The position numbers and the translations under genes are program-made. The notes under the pieces were generated by a model. That model was not told where the DNA came from and searched no databases. It saw nothing but the letters and a program-made list of their open reading frames with translations. 64,000 bases of DNA from positions 3,534,001-3,598,000 of the forward strand of contig NZ_VIWU01000001.1 in assembly GCF_007994075.1 (NCBI RefSeq). The letters are read 5' to 3'. Each line of letters opens with the position of its first letter. The first letter of the stretch is position 1. This stretch comes from Pseudonocardia hierapolitana (GTDB lineage Bacteria > Actinomycetota > Actinomycetes > Mycobacteriales > Pseudonocardiaceae). Shown here in pieces: positions 27,795-34,953 of this stretch.

Positions 27795-29153
27795 TCAGGA
27801 AAGTGGCTTCGCTGACATCGCGTCGAGCCGGCGGCCGCGGCGCAGCTGCATGTCGTGGCCCAGGTAGCCGAGCACGTACAGCAGGGCGGCCGTGCCGAAC
27901 AGCCACGGCGCGGCACCGTCCGGCGGGCTGAGCAGGGCAGCCGCGGCCACCGCCAGTACGTACCCGAGGTTGAACACGATGTCGTAGAGGGCGAACACCC
28001 GCCCGAGCACTTCGTCGCGCACCTCGCCCTGCACGGCGGCGTCGGCGCAGAGCTTCACGATCTGGCCGGTGAGCCCCAGTACGAACGCGGCCACCATCAC
28101 GATGGGCAGCGAGAGCAGCGCGGCAAGGGTGAGCTGCGTGACCGTGGCGACCACGAGCGACACCCGCACCGTGCGCGGCCGTCCCCACCTGCGCACCATC
28201 CACGGGGCGAGCAGCGCCGCCGTGCCCAGCCCGGCCGCGGCGAGCACGACCGCCTCGCCCAGGCCGGCCATGCCGGCGCGCAGCGGGCCGGCATCGGTGA
28301 AGGCGTAGCGGAACAGCAGCAGCGAGAGCAGCGTCGAGACGCCGAACGCGAGCCGGTGCGTCCCCAGCGCCAGGAACGACGCCGCCACCGACGGGGTGGC
28401 GATCGTCGCCCGTGCCCCGTCGGCGAAACCGTGCAGCACGCTGCCCGCCGTCGACCGGCGGCCATCGGTGCGGTCGGGTCCGAGCCTGCCGCGGCGGAAC
28501 CCGGCCGCCAGCACCGCCGCCGTCAACGAGCCGGCGATCCCGATCAGCGTCACCGCGCCCGAGCCCGCGTCGCCCGTGCCGACGAGCTCGCGCAGCCCGA
28601 TCGCCGTCGCCCCGCCGATGGCGGCTGTCGCGGCGCCCGCGGTGACGGCGAAGGTGTTGGCCTCCACCAGGTGCCGGCGCGGCACGACGTGGGGCAGTGC
28701 GACCGACAGCGCGGCGAGCACGAACCGGTTCACCCCGGCCGCGGCCAGTGCGGGCAGGTACAGCGCCACGCCGGACGCGCCGGACATCACCACGGCCGCG
28801 ACGACCACCACGAGCGCCGCGCGGACGACGTTGGCACCCATGAGAACCCGCTTGCGGTCCCAGCGGTCGATGAGCGCGCCCGCGAACGGCCCGATCAGCG
28901 AGTACGGCAGCAGCAGCACGGCGAGCCCGGCCGCCACGGCGATCGGGTCGGCCTGCCGCTCCGGGTTGAACAGCACGGCCCCGCCCAGCGCGGCCTGGAA
29001 CATGCCGTCGCCCCACTGCGTGGCGAAGCGCACGGCCAGCAGCCGGCGGAAGCCCCGGGTGCGCACTAGCCGGACGAGGCCGAGGCGCACGTGCGGCGTC
29101 GCGCCGGAGACCTCGGCGGCGGCGGACGGCAGCCCGGGTCCCGATGACGGCAC
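27795..29153 (-). CDS. Major facilitator superfamily transporter
   Basis: Twelve-helix membrane transporter, probably a drug or metabolite exporter. The 452-residue product from GTG 29153 contains the MFS loop motif ALIDRWDRKRVLMGANVVRA between helices 2 and 3. Its C-terminal half has a related loop and the GEVRDEVLGRVFALYDIVFN block common to MFS-3 type permeases. Substrate is unknown. The neighbouring YqgE gene diverges 42 bases away, the same pair as Rv0037c-Rv0038 in mycobacteria. Confidence 0.85.
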   Translation of the reverse strand: MPSSGPGLPSAAAEVSGATPHVRLGLVRLVRTRGFRRLLAVRFATQWGDGMFQAALGGAVLFNPERQADPIAVAAGLAVLLLPYSLIGPFAGALIDRWDRKRVLMGANVVRAALVVVVAAVVMSGASGVALYLPALAAAGVNRFVLAALSVALPHVVPRRHLVEANTFAVTAGAATAAIGGATAIGLRELVGTGDAGSGAVTLIGIAGSLTAAVLAAGFRRGRLGPDRTDGRRSTAGSVLHGFADGARATIATPSVAASFLALGTHRLAFGVSTLLSLLLFRYAFTDAGPLRAGMAGLGEAVVLAAAGLGTAALLAPWMVRRWGRPRTVRVSLVVATVTQLTLAALLSLPIVMVAAFVLGLTGQIVKLCADAAVQGEVRDEVLGRVFALYDIVFNLGYVLAVAAAALLSPPDGAAPWLFGTAALLYVLGYLGHDMQLRRGRRLDAMSAKPLS

Positions 29154-29195
29154 GGCTGGAGGCTACTGCGCCGAGCGGGGTGCGACGATGGGCGC

Positions 29196-29795
29196 GTGGT
29201 GGACGAGCGCTCCCGTTCTGGTTCGGCTCCCGGTTCGGAGGTGGCGCCAGGCACGTTGTTGGTGGCGGCTCCCGGACTGCTCGACCCCCACTTCCGGCGC
29301 ACTGTGATCTACGTCATCGAACACCGTCCGCGGGGCACCCTCGGCGTCGTCCTCAACCGCCCGAGCGAGGTCACGGTGCGCGACGTCCTCCCGTCGTGGG
29401 CGCCGCTGTCGTCGCAGCCGCCCGCGGTCTTCGTCGGAGGGCCGGTGGAGAGCGAGACGGCACTGTGCCTCGCGGCCGTGCGAACCGGCCAGGACCCGGG
29501 CGCGGTCGACGGGCTGATCACGGTGCGCGGCCCGGTGGCGCTCGTCGACCTCGACTCCGACCCGGCCGCGATCGCGCCGAGGCTGCGCGGCCTGCGCGTG
29601 TTCGCCGGCTACTCGGGCTGGGACGCCGGGCAGCTCGCGGGTGAGATCGAGCGGGGCGACTGGATCGTCGTGCCCGCGATCCCGGACGACGTGCTGGCCC
29701 GCCACGACGGGCGCCTGTGGGGGCACGTGCTGCGCCGGCAGGGCATGCCGCTGGCGCTGCTCGCGACCTACCCGCTGGACCTGAGGAACAACTAG
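29196..29795 (+). CDS. YqgE/AlgH family protein (UPF0301)
   Basis: Conserved cytosolic protein of unclear role. The 199-residue product starts at GTG 29196 and shows the family features GTLLVAAPGLLDPHFRRTVI, RGTLGVVLNRPSEV, VFVGGPVESETALCL and FAGYSGWDAGQLAGEIERGD. The length is typical. GTG 29199 is an equally possible start. It is followed by a 347-base spacer with repeats. Confidence 0.92.
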   Translation: MVDERSRSGSAPGSEVAPGTLLVAAPGLLDPHFRRTVIYVIEHRPRGTLGVVLNRPSEVTVRDVLPSWAPLSSQPPAVFVGGPVESETALCLAAVRTGQDPGAVDGLITVRGPVALVDLDSDPAAIAPRLRGLRVFAGYSGWDAGQLAGEIERGDWIVVPAIPDDVLARHDGRLWGHVLRRQGMPLALLATYPLDLRNN

Positions 29796-30142
29796 AGCGC
29801 TCCAGCTGTCGGTCGCTGTGCCCGTGCGTGGAGGGCTTCCGCGGGAGGCGGGCACTGGCGTCGTCGTGATCGACGGGTAGTCGGGGGGATCTGACCCCGG
29901 TTCGCGCGCCGAGCCCACCGGAACCCCGCCCGACCGGACCGACTCGACGGGACCCGATCGAGGGGCGACGGGCTCAGGCCCGGCGGCTGCCCCGAGCTGC
30001 GGCCACGGCCTCACCGGCCGGGATGCTCATGATCCGAACTGTCGGTTGCCCATGACCATGAGCACCCGCCACCGCAGATCATGAGCGCCAAGATCGCAAG
30101 TATCGGTTGCCCATGGCTGTCACCACAGCCATGGCCAACCGT
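29796..30142. other. Intergenic region with direct repeat and long hairpin
   Basis: No gene is seen in these 347 bases. The word TCGGTTGCCCATG occurs at 30042 and again at 30103 inside longer similar stretches. The second copy begins a hairpin: a 16-bp stem with one mismatch (30105-30120 against 30125-30140, arms ending CCATGGCTGT and ACAGCCATGG) around the loop CACC. The hairpin lies just past the stop codon of the leftward SdpI-like gene and could be its terminator, although no U-tract follows. Confidence 0.55.
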
Positions 30143-30592
30143 TCAGAGCTGCTGCTGGGCCCCGGCCGCCGCGGTGCGGCAGCCGGCGACGAGGTCGCAG
30201 CCCGCGCACGTCCCGCCGCACACCGACGGGCCGGGCTCCGGCGGCGGCACGGCAGCCGCCGCGCGATCTCCCGCCACACCCCCGACCCCGGTGAGGACGA
30301 AGGCCGCGACCGCGCTCACCACGACGAGGGTCCAGCCGAGCAGGCCGGTGGCTCCTGCCAGCAGTGCGCCGCCGCCTGCGACGGACACGGCGCCCGCCGC
30401 GCCGAGCGGGGCCGCCGCCACCTGGTTGGCCACGGCGAACGCGGCGTCGGAGCGCAGGCTCGCAGCCGTGCGCACCCCTGCCCAGCGGTTGCGCCTCAGC
30501 TTCCGGCGCAGTCCGAGGATCGCGATCGTGAGCAGCGCGGCACCGAGCACGACGAGCAGGGCACCCAGGGTGAGGCGGACGGGGAGCGGCAC
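30143..30592 (-). CDS. SdpI-family membrane protein with cysteine-rich tail
   Basis: Small membrane protein related to SdpI, the immunity/signal protein against the SDP toxin of Bacillus. The 149-residue product from GTG 30592 has three hydrophobic segments (about 5-27, 58-82, 86-108) and the SdpI loop NRWAGVRTAASLRSDAAFAV between the first two. Its C-terminal tail carries four cysteines (SVCGGTCAGCDLVAGC), an unusual possible metal or disulfide site. Immunity function is not shown; many SdpI-like proteins have no known toxin partner, and none is visible here. Confidence 0.75.
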   Translation of the reverse strand: MPLPVRLTLGALLVVLGAALLTIAILGLRRKLRRNRWAGVRTAASLRSDAAFAVANQVAAAPLGAAGAVSVAGGGALLAGATGLLGWTLVVVSAVAAFVLTGVGGVAGDRAAAAVPPPEPGPSVCGGTCAGCDLVAGCRTAAAGAQQQL

Positions 30593-30691
30593 GACGAACA
30601 GGCTACGCGGTGCTCATGGCCTCCGCTCCGCTTCGGCGGCTCGCGCCCGCACGCTCGCTGTACCCGATCGCGCAGGCCGGACCGCCGGCGC

Positions 30692-30838
30692 TACCCTGGT
30701 CACGTGGCCCGCCGACTTCTTCTCGAGGCCGCGCCGCACTGAGCGTGTCACACACGCTACGGCGCGGCCGACCCCTTCTGCCTCGAGCAGGGGGGTCTTC
30801 TGGTTTTCGGGCCCCCACGGACTTCCCAGGAGCGGGAC
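30692..30838 (+). promoter_or_regulatory. leuS leader: promoter, leader peptide and attenuator-like structure
   Basis: A -10 element TACCCT (30692-30697) lies six bases before the GTG of a 12-codon leader ORF rich in leucine codons. The end of the ORF overlaps a long stem: GGCCGCGCCG (30727-30736) with CGGCGCGGCC (30760-30769), enclosing AGCGTGT (30742) with ACACGCT (30752). A second hairpin follows, CCCCTTCTGC (30772) with GCAGGGGGG (30787), then TCTTCTGGTTTT, like an intrinsic terminator. The layout fits ribosome-mediated attenuation sensing charged tRNA-Leu. An antiterminator pairing could not be defined by eye. Confidence 0.65.
30704..30742 (+). CDS. Leucine-rich leader peptide of leuS
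   Basis: Twelve-codon ORF starting with GTG 30704 and ending TGA 30742; the product is MARRLLLEAAPH. Three consecutive leucine codons (CTT CTT CTC) occur, of which CTT is rare in this GC-rich genome, as expected for a stalling site. The start codon lies at the predicted transcription start, so the peptide would be translated leaderless. Its 3' end is part of the first arm of the attenuator stem. No family comparison is possible for such a short peptide. Confidence 0.6.
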   Translation: MARRLLLEAAPH

Positions 30839-33745
30839 ATGAGCACGGACACGACCGCAGCCGCGTCGGAGCGCGCCGAGGCACCCGGCAACGAGGGTGC
30901 CCCGCTGTTCCGCTACGGCGCCGCGCTGGCCGCGCAGATCGAGCGTCGGTGGCAGGACCGGTGGGAGAGCGAGGGCACGTTCCACGCGCCCAACCCGTCC
31001 GGGCCATGGGCTGATCCCACCCGCCTGGATCCCGAGGCCACGGGGCGCGAGAAGGTCTACCTGCTGGACATGTTCCCGTACCCGTCCGGCGCGGGGCTGC
31101 ACGTCGGCCACCCGCTGGGCTTCATCGGCACCGACGTGCTGGGCCGCTACCTGCGGATGAACGGCCGCACCGTGCTGCACGCCATGGGCTTCGACGCGTT
31201 CGGGCTGCCCGCCGAGCAGTACGCGGTGCAGACCGGCACGCACCCGCGGAAGACCACCGAGGAGAACATCAAGCGCTACAAGGCGCAGCTGCGCCAGCTG
31301 GGCCTGGCCCACGACGAGCGCCGCTCGGTGGCCACCACCGACGTCGAGTTCTACCGCTGGACGCAGTGGATCTTCCTGCAGATCTTCAACAGCTGGTACG
31401 ACGAGAAGCAGCAGAAGGCCCGGCCCATCGCCGAGCTGGAGGCCGAGTTCGCGCGGGACGAGCGCCGGACGCCGGATGGCCGCGGTTGGTGCGAGCTGAC
31501 GCGGGCCGAGCAGCGCAGCGTGATCGACGGCTACCGGCTGGCCTACATCTCCGAGGCGCCGGTGAACTGGTGCCCCGGTCTGGGCACGGTGCTGGCCAAC
31601 GAGGAGGTCACCGCCGACGGGCGCAGCGAGCGGGGCAACTTCCCCGTGTTCCGCCGCAACCTGAAGCAGTGGATGATGCGGATCACGGCCTACGCCGACC
31701 GCCTGATCGACGACCTGGACCGGCTGGACTGGCCGGACTCGATCAAGACGATGCAGCGGAACTGGATCGGTCGCTCCGCGGGCGCGCAGGTCCGCTTCCC
31801 CGTCGACGGCGCGGAGATCGAGGTCTTCACCACCCGGCCGGACACGCTGTTCGGCGCCACGTACATGGTGCTGGCGCCCGAGCACCCGCTGATCGACACG
31901 ATCGTCCCCGAGCGGTGGCCCGACGGCGTCGACTCCCGGTGGACCGGCGGAGCGGCCGGACCGCGGGAGGCGATCGGTGCGTACCAGGAAGCCGCATCGC
32001 GCAAGTCCGAGCTGGACCGCCAGGAGAACAAGGAGAAGACCGGCGTCTTCACCGGCGCGTACGCCATCAACCCGGTGAACGGCGAGCGGATCCCGGTCTT
32101 CGTCGCCGACTACGTGCTGATGGGCTACGGCACCGGCGCGATCATGGCCGTTCCCGGGCAGGACCAGCGCGACTGGGACTTCGCCCAGGCCTTCGGCCTG
32201 CCGATCGTGCGCACCGTCCAGCCCAGCGAGGGCTGGGACGGCGAGGCGTACACCGGTGACGGTCCCGCGATCAACTCGGCCAACGACGAGATCAGCCTGA
32301 ACGGCATGGGCGTCGCCGAGGCGAAGCAGGCCATCACCGGGTGGCTGGCCGCGCGCGGAGCGGGCGAGGCCGTCGTGCAGTACAAGCTGCGCGACTGGCT
32401 GTTCTCCCGCCAGCGGTACTGGGGTGAGCCGTTCCCGATCGTGTGGGACGAGGACGGCCCGGTCGCGCTGCCCGCCGACCAGCTGCCGGTCGAGCTGCCC
32501 GACGTCGACGACTACTCCCCCAAGACCTACGACCCGGACGCCGCCGACACCGAGCCGGAGCCGCCGCTGTCGCGTGCCACCCAGTGGGTCGAGACCGACC
32601 TGGACCTGGGTCCCGCCGACGGCAACAGGGGGCTGCAGCACTACCGCCGCGAGACCAACACCATGCCCCAGTGGGCCGGCTCGTGCTGGTACCCGATCCG
32701 GTACCTGGACCCGGAGAACCACGAGCGGTTCGTCGACGCCGACGTCGAGCAGTACTGGATGGGCAAGGACCCGTCGCGGCCGGGCGACCCCGGTGGCGTC
32801 GACCTGTACGTCGGCGGCGTCGAGCACGCCGTGCTGCACCTGCTGTACGCCCGGTTCTGGCACAAGGTCCTGTACGACCTGGGCCACCTGAGCTCGGAGG
32901 AGCCGTTCCGCAGGCTGGTCAACCAGGGCTACATCCAGGCCTACGCCTACACCGACGCCCGCGGTGCCTACGTCCCGGCCGAGGAGGTGGTCGAGGACGA
33001 GGAGGGGCGTTTCACGTGGAACGGTCAGCCGGTGCGGCGCGAGTACGGGAAGATGGGCAAGTCGCTGAAGAACGTGGTGACGCCCGACGAGATGTGCGAC
33101 CGCTACGGCGCCGACACCTTCCGCTTGTACGAGATGTCCACGGGCCCGCTGGAGGTCTCCCGGCCCTGGTCCACCCGTGACGTGATCGGTTCGCACCGGT
33201 TCCTGCAGCGCGTCTGGCGCAACCTGGTGGACGAGCAGACCGGCGCGGTCCGCGTCACCGAGGACGAGCCCGACACCGAGACGCTGCGGGTGCTGCACAG
33301 GGTGATCGCCGGCGTGCACAGCGACTACGCCGCGCTGCGCTACAACACGGCTGCGGCCAAGCTGATCGAGCTGAACAACCACCTGACCAAGGTCTACGGC
33401 ACGGTCGGCGTGCCCCGCTCCGTCGCGGAGCCGCTGGTGCTGATGATGGCGCCGCTGACGCCGCACATCGCGGAGGAGCTGTGGTCGTTGCTGGGCCACG
33501 AGGGCTCGCTGGCCTATCACTCGTTCCCGGTGGCCGACGAGCAGTACCTGGCCGCAGACACCGTCGAGTACCCGATCCAGATCAACGGCAAGGTGCGCTC
33601 GCGCGTCACGGTGGCGGCCGACGCCACGGCCGATCAGGTGGAGGCCGCCGCGTTGGCCGACGAGAAGGTCGTCGCCGCGCTGGCCGGCCGGGCGCCCCGC
33701 AAGGTGATCGTGGTGCCCGGCCGACTGGTCAACGTGGTGATCTGA
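30839..33745 (+). CDS. leuS: Leucyl-tRNA synthetase
   Basis: Class I synthetase that charges tRNA-Leu. The 968-residue product from ATG 30839 has the HIGH-type motif [18 protein letters not shown], the CP1 editing insertion ([20 protein letters not shown]) and the KMSKS-type motif [18 protein letters not shown]-terminal anticodon-binding domain ends [14 protein letters not shown]. Length is typical of actinobacteria. The ribosome binding site is CCAGGAGCGGG. Expression is probably controlled by the leucine leader upstream. A near-parS word (GTTTCACGTGGAAC) lies in its coding sequence at 33009. Confidence 0.98.
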
Positions 33746-33751
33746 GGTCGG

Positions 33752-33997
33752 TCACCGGGTCAACCAGCGGCCGAACCAGCGCTGGATCCGAGGCAGTACG
33801 CCCCAGACCACGGTCGCGGTCATGATCGGCACGACCACGATGAAGCGCACGGCGGCCGGGAGCTCGTGCACGACCGGATCCGTCAGCGTGACGATGACGA
33901 GGATCAGCGGGTAGATCGCGCAGGTCAGCAGCACCCACATCTTCCAGCGTCGCGGGGCGGTGGAGGTGGGCTGCTCGCGCAGCGGGGTCGTCGGCAT
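33752..33997 (-). CDS. Small two-helix membrane protein
   Basis: The 81-residue product has a basic N-terminus (MPTTPLREQPTSTAPRRWKM) and two hydrophobic helices (about 21-38 and 46-66), ending RIQRWFGRWLTR. This resembles the membrane tail found on some antibiotic-biosynthesis-monooxygenase domain proteins, here as a stand-alone protein. It is divergent from the XRE regulator at 34105, which may control it. Function is unknown. Confidence 0.7.
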   Translation of the reverse strand: MPTTPLREQPTSTAPRRWKMWVLLTCAIYPLILVIVTLTDPVVHELPAAVRFIVVVPIMTATVVWGVLPRIQRWFGRWLTR

Positions 33998-34104
33998 GTC
34001 CCCACGGTGCGCGCGCGGACGCGAGCCGTTCAGGGCGCGCCGTTCCTGGTTGCGGCCTCGGTGGCAGTCGCAGGGCCACCCACGACCGTTGCGTCGCTGG
34101 GACG

Positions 34105-34953
34105 ATGGTCGTCGTGAGCTCGACAGCGCTTGCCGCCTTCCTGCGGGCCCGCCGGGCCCGGATCCGCCCCGAGGACGTCGGGTTGCCCGGTGGCGTGGGA
34201 CTGCGGCGCACCCCCGGCCTTCGACGGGAGGAGCTGGCCGCGCTCGCGGGAGTGAGCGTCGACTACTACATCCGGCTGGAACAGGGCAAGGAGACGAACC
34301 CGAGCAGCGCGGTGCTCGGCGCGCTGGCCGGCGCGTTGCGGCTCGACGACGAAGCGCGGTCCCACCTGTTCGCGCTCGCCGACCACGTCGCCAGGCGCAG
34401 GCGGGTGCACCGCCCGCCGGACCGCGCGGTCACAGCGAGCATGCGGCTGCTCCTGGAGAACCTGCGCCCGTGCCCGGCACTGCTGCTGAGCCGCACCAGC
34501 GATGTGCTCGCCGCCAATCCCGAGGGCCTCGCGCTCTACCACGGTCTGGTCGAGTGGCCGCCCGGCCGGAGGAACACGATCCGCTACATGTTCCGGCATC
34601 CGGGGGCGCCTGCGCTGTTCGGGGACTGGCGGTCGTCGGCGGCGGGAGCGGTTGCGGACCTGCGCACGGTGCTCGCCACCGACCCGGACGCGCCCGACGT
34701 CGCCGCGCTGGTCGAGGAACTGTCGGCGGTGAGCCCGGAGTTCGCCTCGCTCTGGGAGCGCCACGACGTCCGTCGCAAGAGCGGCGCGCAGAAGGTCTTC
34801 CACCACCCGGCGGTGGGGACGCTCTCCCTGGTGTGGGAGGTGCTGCGCTCGGGTGACGGCAGTACCCGGCTCACCGTCCACCAGGCTGCACGGGGCACGC
34901 CGGACCACGACGCGCTCTCGCTGTTGGCGATCGCCGCCGACGCCGCCCGGTAG
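34105..34953 (+). CDS. XRE-family regulator with MmyB-like ligand domain
   Basis: Helix-turn-helix transcription factor. The 282-residue product has an N-terminal XRE domain (TPGLRREELAALAGVSVDYY, IRLEQGKETNPSSAVLGALA) and a C-terminal MmyB-like LBD of PAS fold (RTSDVLAANPEGLALYHGLV, NTIRYMFRHPGAPALF, GTLSLVWEVLRSGDGS) that may bind a fatty acid or other lipid ligand. Such regulators usually control the adjacent divergent gene, here the small membrane protein at 33752. ATG 34105 or GTG 34114 may start. Confidence 0.88.
   Translation: MVVVSSTALAAFLRARRARIRPEDVGLPGGVGLRRTPGLRREELAALAGVSVDYYIRLEQGKETNPSSAVLGALAGALRLDDEARSHLFALADHVARRRRVHRPPDRAVTASMRLLLENLRPCPALLLSRTSDVLAANPEGLALYHGLVEWPPGRRNTIRYMFRHPGAPALFGDWRSSAAGAVADLRTVLATDPDAPDVAALVEELSAVSPEFASLWERHDVRRKSGAQKVFHHPAVGTLSLVWEVLRSGDGSTRLTVHQAARGTPDHDALSLLAIAADAAR

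Follow-up and report, generated by a model that had tools for sequence, protein, structure and literature searches.

How the leucyl-tRNA synthetase gene leuS of Pseudonocardia hierapolitana might respond to leucine is a question raised by the DNA in front of it, which carries a short leucine-rich open reading frame (ORF) followed by what resembles a transcription terminator. T-boxes sense uncharged tRNA and control synthetase genes, and the original prediction for this locus noted that no T-box is visible and proposed ribosome-mediated attenuation governed by a leader peptide. We analysed this element in a 64,000-nt stretch of the genome, referred to as the window, and in relatives. As set out below, we consider it probable (roughly 0.8) that the window element attenuates leuS transcription in response to leucine by a ribosome-mediated mechanism, a reading drawn from sequence comparison and predicted folding.

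The features of the element are listed in Table 1. As had been predicted, a TACCCT box is followed six bases on by an ORF of 12 codons with three consecutive Leu codons, two of which are CTT. The start codon had to be corrected from ATG to GTG (30704), and the leader peptide reads, letter by letter, VARRLLLEAAPH. The end of the ORF indeed provides one arm of a 10-bp stem, here called P1, which closes over a 7-bp hairpin, and a terminator-like hairpin and a T-rich stretch follow before the next gene, which is leuS. The stretch 30704-30841 has a predicted free energy of -72.5 kcal/mol, lower than that of all 200 dinucleotide shuffles (z -3.96), and the 10-bp P1 is contained in the predicted folds of both this stretch (0.99) and 30725-30797 (1.0). 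In the fold of 30704-30808, P1 is replaced by a shifted stem (30733-30737 with 30764-30768; 0.97), which wins because the leader 5' end pairs with a P1 arm.

Table 1. The element upstream of leuS (window coordinates), and loci at other genes, in other actinobacteria, with the stem-terminator layout.
Feature	Position	Strand	Basis
-10 element TACCCT of the leader promoter	30692..30697	+	sequence
Leader ORF VARRLLLEAAPH, 12 codons, GTG start, stop codon TGA at 30740-30742, presumably leaderless	30704..30742	+	sequence
Leu codon run CTT 30716, CTT 30719, CTC 30722; proposed sensor	30716..30724	+	sequence
P1 5' arm GGCCGCGCCG, spanning the end of codon 8 through codon 11; pairs with 30760-30769	30727..30736	+	folding; P1 family covariation
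Inner 7-bp hairpin AGCGTGT/ACACGCT (30742-30748/30752-30758), caps P1; strain-local	30742..30758	+	sequence, folding
P1 3' arm CGGCGCGGCC, adjoins the terminator without a gap	30760..30769	+	folding
Terminator hairpin GACCCCTTCTGC-CTCGA-GCAGGGGGGTC	30770..30797	+	folding; family covariation
T-rich stretch TCTTCTGGTTTTC, overlaps and then continues past the terminator hairpin	30796..30808	+	sequence
leuS ribosome-binding region CCAGGAGCGGGAC	30826..30838	+	by eye
leuS, leucyl-tRNA synthetase, 968 aa	30839..33745	+	NCBIfam TIGR00396 leuS_bact, 900.7 bits, cut-off 548.4
cimA loci L234, L235, L236, L240, L248
ilvB loci L230, L231, L232, L237, L238, L239, L246
leuA (2-isopropylmalate synthase) locus L241

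On both strands of the window, this is the sole TANNNT box with an ATG or GTG ORF of 5-30 codons and three consecutive Leu codons located 5-8 nt further on, and the leader is also the sole ORF of this kind when the box is disregarded. CTT is rare here, as the original prediction had stated, since eight window ORFs taken as genes use it for 5 of their 304 Leu codons; among the Leu codons of the retrieved leuS genes its share is 1.9%. No Rfam family reached the threshold in the window region 28000-34500, where a T-box match was likewise absent up to an E value of 10, in agreement with the earlier observation. A search covering five loci did not give an Rfam match at threshold either, the best being a Pseudomonas sRNA far below the cut-off. 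GC-rich DNA folds easily, so that the combination of short ORF, GC-rich stem and terminator might have arisen by chance, but the window contains no second ORF of this type, and the conservation and covariation in relatives described below refute such an assembly, to which we assign hardly any probability at all.

To follow the leader through relatives, two sets were used. The family set comprised the leuS loci of 60 genomes, from which 56 upstream regions were used (one genome gave no match, and three gave a divergent leuS only), and the database set comprised 80 leuS loci from a public genome collection, including L131, which came without upstream sequence. A leader was defined as an ORF with at least two consecutive Leu codons whose start codon stands 4-9 nt behind a TANNNT box, and the box is therefore present in all leaders by selection. 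Such a leader was found at 51 of the 56 family loci and at 35 of the 80 database loci. Two loci were common to both sets, and 84 of the 86 leader stretches are distinct. The typical leader peptide is M/V-STARLLLSRPR. Database loci with a leader include those of Pseudonocardia, Lentzea, Amycolatopsis, Saccharopolyspora, Saccharomonospora, Micromonospora, Paractinoplanes, Streptomyces, Actinomadura, Phytoactinopolyspora, Georgenia and Ornithinimicrobium, and the scan gave no match at database loci including those of Actinomycetospora, Nocardia, Mycobacterium, Corynebacterium, Bifidobacterium and Acidimicrobiia. In the mycobacterial relatives L081, L082 and L087, where the scan detected no attenuator, a TACCCT box precedes the start codon of leuS itself by 6 nt, and this gene looks leaderless there. 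Of the 86 leaders, 84 close the Leu run with CTT and two, those of the window and L057, with CTC, and the penultimate codon is CTC in 47, CTT in 32 and CTG in 7. The second CTT of the window aligns with the last CTT of the other leaders, in a column that is CTT in 58 of the 61 elements aligned below.

The 86 leaders were combined with 31 chosen Pseudonocardia elements to give 117 elements (L173 would have been a 32nd but did not fit the terminator pattern); removal of near-duplicates left 88, of which 61 were aligned. The 27 that were left out are for the most part elements with a long loop or an unusual leader, or degenerate forms from Pseudonocardia (L026, L027, L030, L052, L057, L063, L073, L076, L086, L095, L100, L143, L147, L149, L151, L153, L158, L160, L163, L175-L178, L183, L185, L188 and L189). 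One folding run was confined to 31 chosen elements, and the automatic P1 search misplaced P1 at a few loci, e.g. L008 and L020. In the alignment, P1 consists of 12 pairs, with 88.9% of the cells paired and its six basal pairs formed in all 61 elements, and the loop beyond these 12 pairs measures 4 to 19 nt. Two-sided changes were found in 7 of the 12 pairs and in 33 cells, compared to 11.1 in shuffles, and none of 500 shuffles scored as high, while sliding the partner by 1-3 columns lowered the pairing to 28-48%. With 18 further pair types, however, P1 was not unusual, as 58 of the 500 shuffles reached this number. An example of compensation is a C-G pair that has become U-A in Micromonospora leaders, which end in Pro-Cys and not in Pro-Arg. 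Moreover, the P1 arm is kept in the 10 of 86 leaders whose stop codon precedes that arm, and P1 is therefore no by-product of a conserved peptide.

The terminator consists of 11 pairs, with 95.8% of the cells paired against 93.7% in shuffles, and shows two-sided changes in 5 pairs, which 5 of 500 shuffles equalled. Its hairpin pattern is present in all 86 leaders, and 83 of them pass a stricter search demanding five or more T among the ten bases that follow (L025, L026 and L086 fail). Elements without the pattern did not enter the alignment, so that selection accounts for part of its conservation; P1 played no role in this selection. P1 and the terminator adjoin directly (0 nt) in 39 of the aligned elements and are separated by 1 nt in 21 others and by 2 nt in the remaining one. 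Unaided, RNAalifold returned the same two stems, with eight pairs each. A further hairpin, P0, which joins the first leader codons to the Leu run, is common in the folds and was rejected, with 2 pairs showing two-sided changes versus 2.7 in shuffles. The original prediction had proposed an alignment of relatives as its own check, and it withstood this check: the ORF, the Leu run, P1 with compensatory changes and the terminator do recur in many genera. At the level of sequence, the comparison thus shows that the ORF, its Leu run with a preference for CTT, P1 and the terminator are conserved, as are the order of these parts and the minimal distance, close to zero, between P1 and the terminator.

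How could these parts act together? Transcription would start at or next to the leader GTG, and ribosomes would load on the leaderless 12-codon ORF. With ample charged Leu-tRNA, the ribosome would reach the stop codon and leave, P1 and the adjoining terminator would form in the released leader, and most transcripts would end before leuS. With scarce charged Leu-tRNA, the ribosome would stall on the last Leu codons, and RNA polymerase would read past the weakened P1 into leuS more often. Toeprints place the leading edge of a stalled ribosome about 12 nt past the first base of the codon in its A site. With codon 30722 in the A site it would reach to approximately 30734 and cover about eight of the ten P1 5'-arm bases, and a stall at the first Leu codon would cover two, therefore the last codons would be the effective sensors. 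We infer from this geometry that P1 depends on the position of the ribosome. In simulations over the 117 elements, a stall halved P1, from a median of 11.8 expected pairs in the released state to 6.5 in the stalled state, and in the window the expected pairs fell from 10.9 to 6.0. The simulated stall weakens P1 without removing it, partly because the shifted stem can form, and this tempers the proposed mechanism. At equilibrium, the terminator forms with P1 masked in 58 of 61 elements, the exceptions being L116, L125 and L159.

Classical attenuation requires a competing antiterminator, and such hairpins are stated for the two Streptomyces leuS leaders in PMC1262725. A variant of the leucine-attenuator explanation, and compatible with it, is a three-way switch, in which the freed P1 3' arm would form an antiterminator with the upper terminator, through GGC and GCC around the CCCCUC arm, and this pairing rather than the weakened P1 would rescue the transcript. 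These positions are able to pair in 53, 59 and 60 of the 61 aligned elements, and when the bases up to alignment column 41 are masked, before the terminator 3' arm is made, the pairing dominates in 49 of 61 elements, against none of 61 with P1 free. However, GGC:GCC does not covary in the alignment, and swapped partners did at least as well in 194 of 200 swaps in the short-loop group and in 170 of 200 in the long-loop group. The stalled pairing of region 2 with the terminator loop (2:3) has a median of 2.7 pairs versus 3.7 in shuffles and lies above its own control in 49 of 117 elements. In the window, the predicted fold contains GGC:GCC when the ribosome edge is set at 30734, but not with the column-based mask, and its expected 2:3 pairs were 3.8, compared to 3.0 in its own shuffled control. 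An 8-base complement, CTCGAGGC (30722-30729) with GCCTCGAG (30780-30787), occurs in the window and L137 but is not whole in L138, L139, L140 and L190, and was rejected as a candidate. Neither covariation nor shuffled controls nor swapped partners thus revealed an antiterminator above chance, and P1 and the terminator alone explain the conservation. The attenuation layout that was originally proposed is supported by the conserved ORF, Leu run, P1 and terminator, but not by an antiterminator, and we regard the three-way switch as possible, at clearly less than even odds. Two published results for Streptomyces coelicolor also count against the leucine-attenuator reading: replacing the candidate regulatory codons of the ilvB leader was without effect, and mutations in the leuA leader did not agree with classical attenuation (PMC1262725).

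This raises the question whether such attenuators need any antiterminator. In a tandem-hairpin design without a dedicated one, P1, sitting flush (0-1 nt) on the terminator, would be needed for efficient termination, and a ribosome on the last control codons would weaken P1 and thereby disarm the terminator; the same design, with Ile, Leu or Val codons, would then serve leuS, ilvB, cimA and some leuA genes. We put this forward as a speculative and rather doubtful extension, whose odds are lowered because the simulated stall only halves P1 and because the P1 of the window has two registers.

Control might also, or instead, be exerted on translation if the Leu run, or else the 5' end of the leader, paired with the region around the leuS start, as has been proposed for the LEU element of leuA. 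The minimum free energy fold of the window element does join the leader 5' end to the leuS start, and positions 30711 and 30833 form G-C in 10, A-U in 4, G-U in 3 and A-C in none of the 17 comparable of 26 Pseudonocardia rows, two of which are the same DNA. In addition, over 62 leaders the Leu run paired better with its own downstream region than with swapped ones (-11.75 versus -10.90 kcal/mol), beating all 20 swaps in a comparison that ignores kinship. Against shuffled sequence, however, the leader-to-start pairing was above control in 11 of 21 Pseudonocardia loci, which is no better than shuffled, and at 77 other loci it was hardly better, with 13.5 versus 12.7 pairs and 48 loci above control. 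Furthermore, GAGCGGGAC before leuS is also present in relatives that have no leader, e.g. L002. We therefore consider translational control of this kind unlikely. A G-rich motif, GGRGC, occurs within 34 nt past the terminator at 35 of 62 Pseudonocardiaceae loci, against 12% in shuffled sequence. Its pairing with the Leu run was considered and set aside; own partners exceeded swapped ones with kinship ignored, and whole-transcript folding gave no clear support.

Variation within Pseudonocardia was surveyed in 62 genomes, 60 of which yielded leuS and 58 an upstream region that could be examined (two matches began at contig ends). Among these 58 regions, a run of at least three Leu codons is found in 16, a run of two in 13, single Leu codons only in 18, no leader in 10 and a truncated leader in one. 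The 16 leaders with at least three Leu codons all contain at least one CTT, and their runs end in CTC in 13 cases and in CTT in 3. The terminator-like pattern is kept in 13 of 15 single-Leu leaders found by script, and a TACCCT-like box is kept in several upstream regions that have no leader, e.g. L002 and L058. Across L001-L003 and L137-L191 the leader appears to decay stepwise, from three Leu codons to two, to one and then to no leader, and this graded loss provides natural variants of each state. The loss of the Leu run or of the whole leader within the same genus was counted against the attenuator explanation. It could mean that in Pseudonocardia the element is a relic, in which leader and terminator persist and the leucine response has gone, as the spread over the 58 regions, with only 16 runs of at least three Leu codons and 10 regions without a leader, would fit. 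However, the window peptide is letter-identical in L137, L138, L139, L140 and L190 (L138 being the same DNA stretch as L057), where the first Leu codon alternates between CTT and CTC and the middle one is always CTT, and the arms of P1 and the terminator are still readable in these five genomes. For these reasons we judge a relic very unlikely and retain the leucine attenuator as the preferred reading.

A covariance model built from the 61-element alignment scored the window element, which is one of its training sequences, at 56 bits (E 7e-10) in its own genome, where the runner-up reached 21 bits (E 0.23). The model matched 170 of 296 genomes of the class, many of them twice, and not all matches lie at leuS. 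Of the best 30 loci, 26 were assigned to leuS by a motif script and 4 remained without assignment. A further 20 places, mostly second matches, comprised 6 leuS-like loci, 7 ilvB, 5 cimA, 1 leuA and a weak, chance-like match in the own genome (Table 1); above the NCBIfam cut-offs were all 7 acetolactate synthases, all 5 citramalate synthases, the leuA and 1 of the 6 leuS. The Ile, Leu and Val codons of these leaders fit the genes, e.g. MFYGLLIIGRRAG before cimA and VRFGILVLH before ilvB; for a cimA leader, no relevant paper was among the open PubMed Central matches listed. The own genome also holds two leuA-like loci with a Leu leader behind a -10-like box, VARLLLRRRGGV (CTG CTC CTT) at L192:1258-1310 and VSWSALLLRSHGGA (CTT CTC CTT) at L193:1284-1341, and both Leu runs end in CTT.

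Compared with known systems, a T-box would likewise serve synthetase control, whereas the sensor in the window is a putative translated ORF and a T-box match is absent. T-boxes have been described for ileS in actinobacteria (PMC1262725). The LEU element of leuA shares with the window element a leader ORF with a Leu codon run, but it has a pseudoknot and pairs its Leu run with the leuA Shine-Dalgarno box (PMC1262725), whereas the window has a terminator, and the corresponding leader-to-start pairing was not above shuffled sequence. Attenuation has also been proposed for Mycobacterium tuberculosis ilvB1, for which PMC13236596 mentions reporters. The actinobacterial ilvB attenuators resemble the window element in combining a short ORF rich in codons for pathway amino acids with a Rho-independent terminator and a proposed read-through upon starvation, but ilvB1 differs in its codons and its gene, its leader of 166 nt, and the presence of both a terminator and an antiterminator (PMC13236596).

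The closest relatives are found in Streptomyces. The original prediction remarked on finding this layout at a synthetase gene; such control of a synthetase is not new, since classical attenuators were already predicted before leuS of S. avermitilis and S. coelicolor (PMC1262725). In S. lividans, LeuL2 (MRAVRLLLSEPR) is reported to be leaderless and to precede leuS, followed by a hairpin and a U stretch (PMC8079986). The window element thus shares with LeuL2 and the Streptomyces leuS attenuator the same gene, a 12-residue Leu leader, a hairpin and a U stretch (PMC1262725, PMC8079986). It differs from LeuL2 in its peptide VARRLLLEAAPH, its GTG start, a longer terminator and one extra codon between the conserved CTT and P1, and the antiterminator published for Streptomyces (PMC1262725) has no above-chance counterpart here. 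The LeuL2 letters occur before leuS in many of the best 30 covariance-model loci, and the Leu leader, P1 and terminator of Streptantibioticus L094 and Streptomyces L110 can be aligned with the window element. Judged by these alignments, the window element belongs to the kind of leuS attenuator already predicted in Streptomyces. What is added here is the range of this kind, its decay in Pseudonocardia, the near-zero spacing between P1 and the terminator, and the same layout at some ilvB, cimA and leuA genes, so that, with an alignment and a model, a prediction for two Streptomyces species is widened to the leuS genes of many actinobacterial genera.
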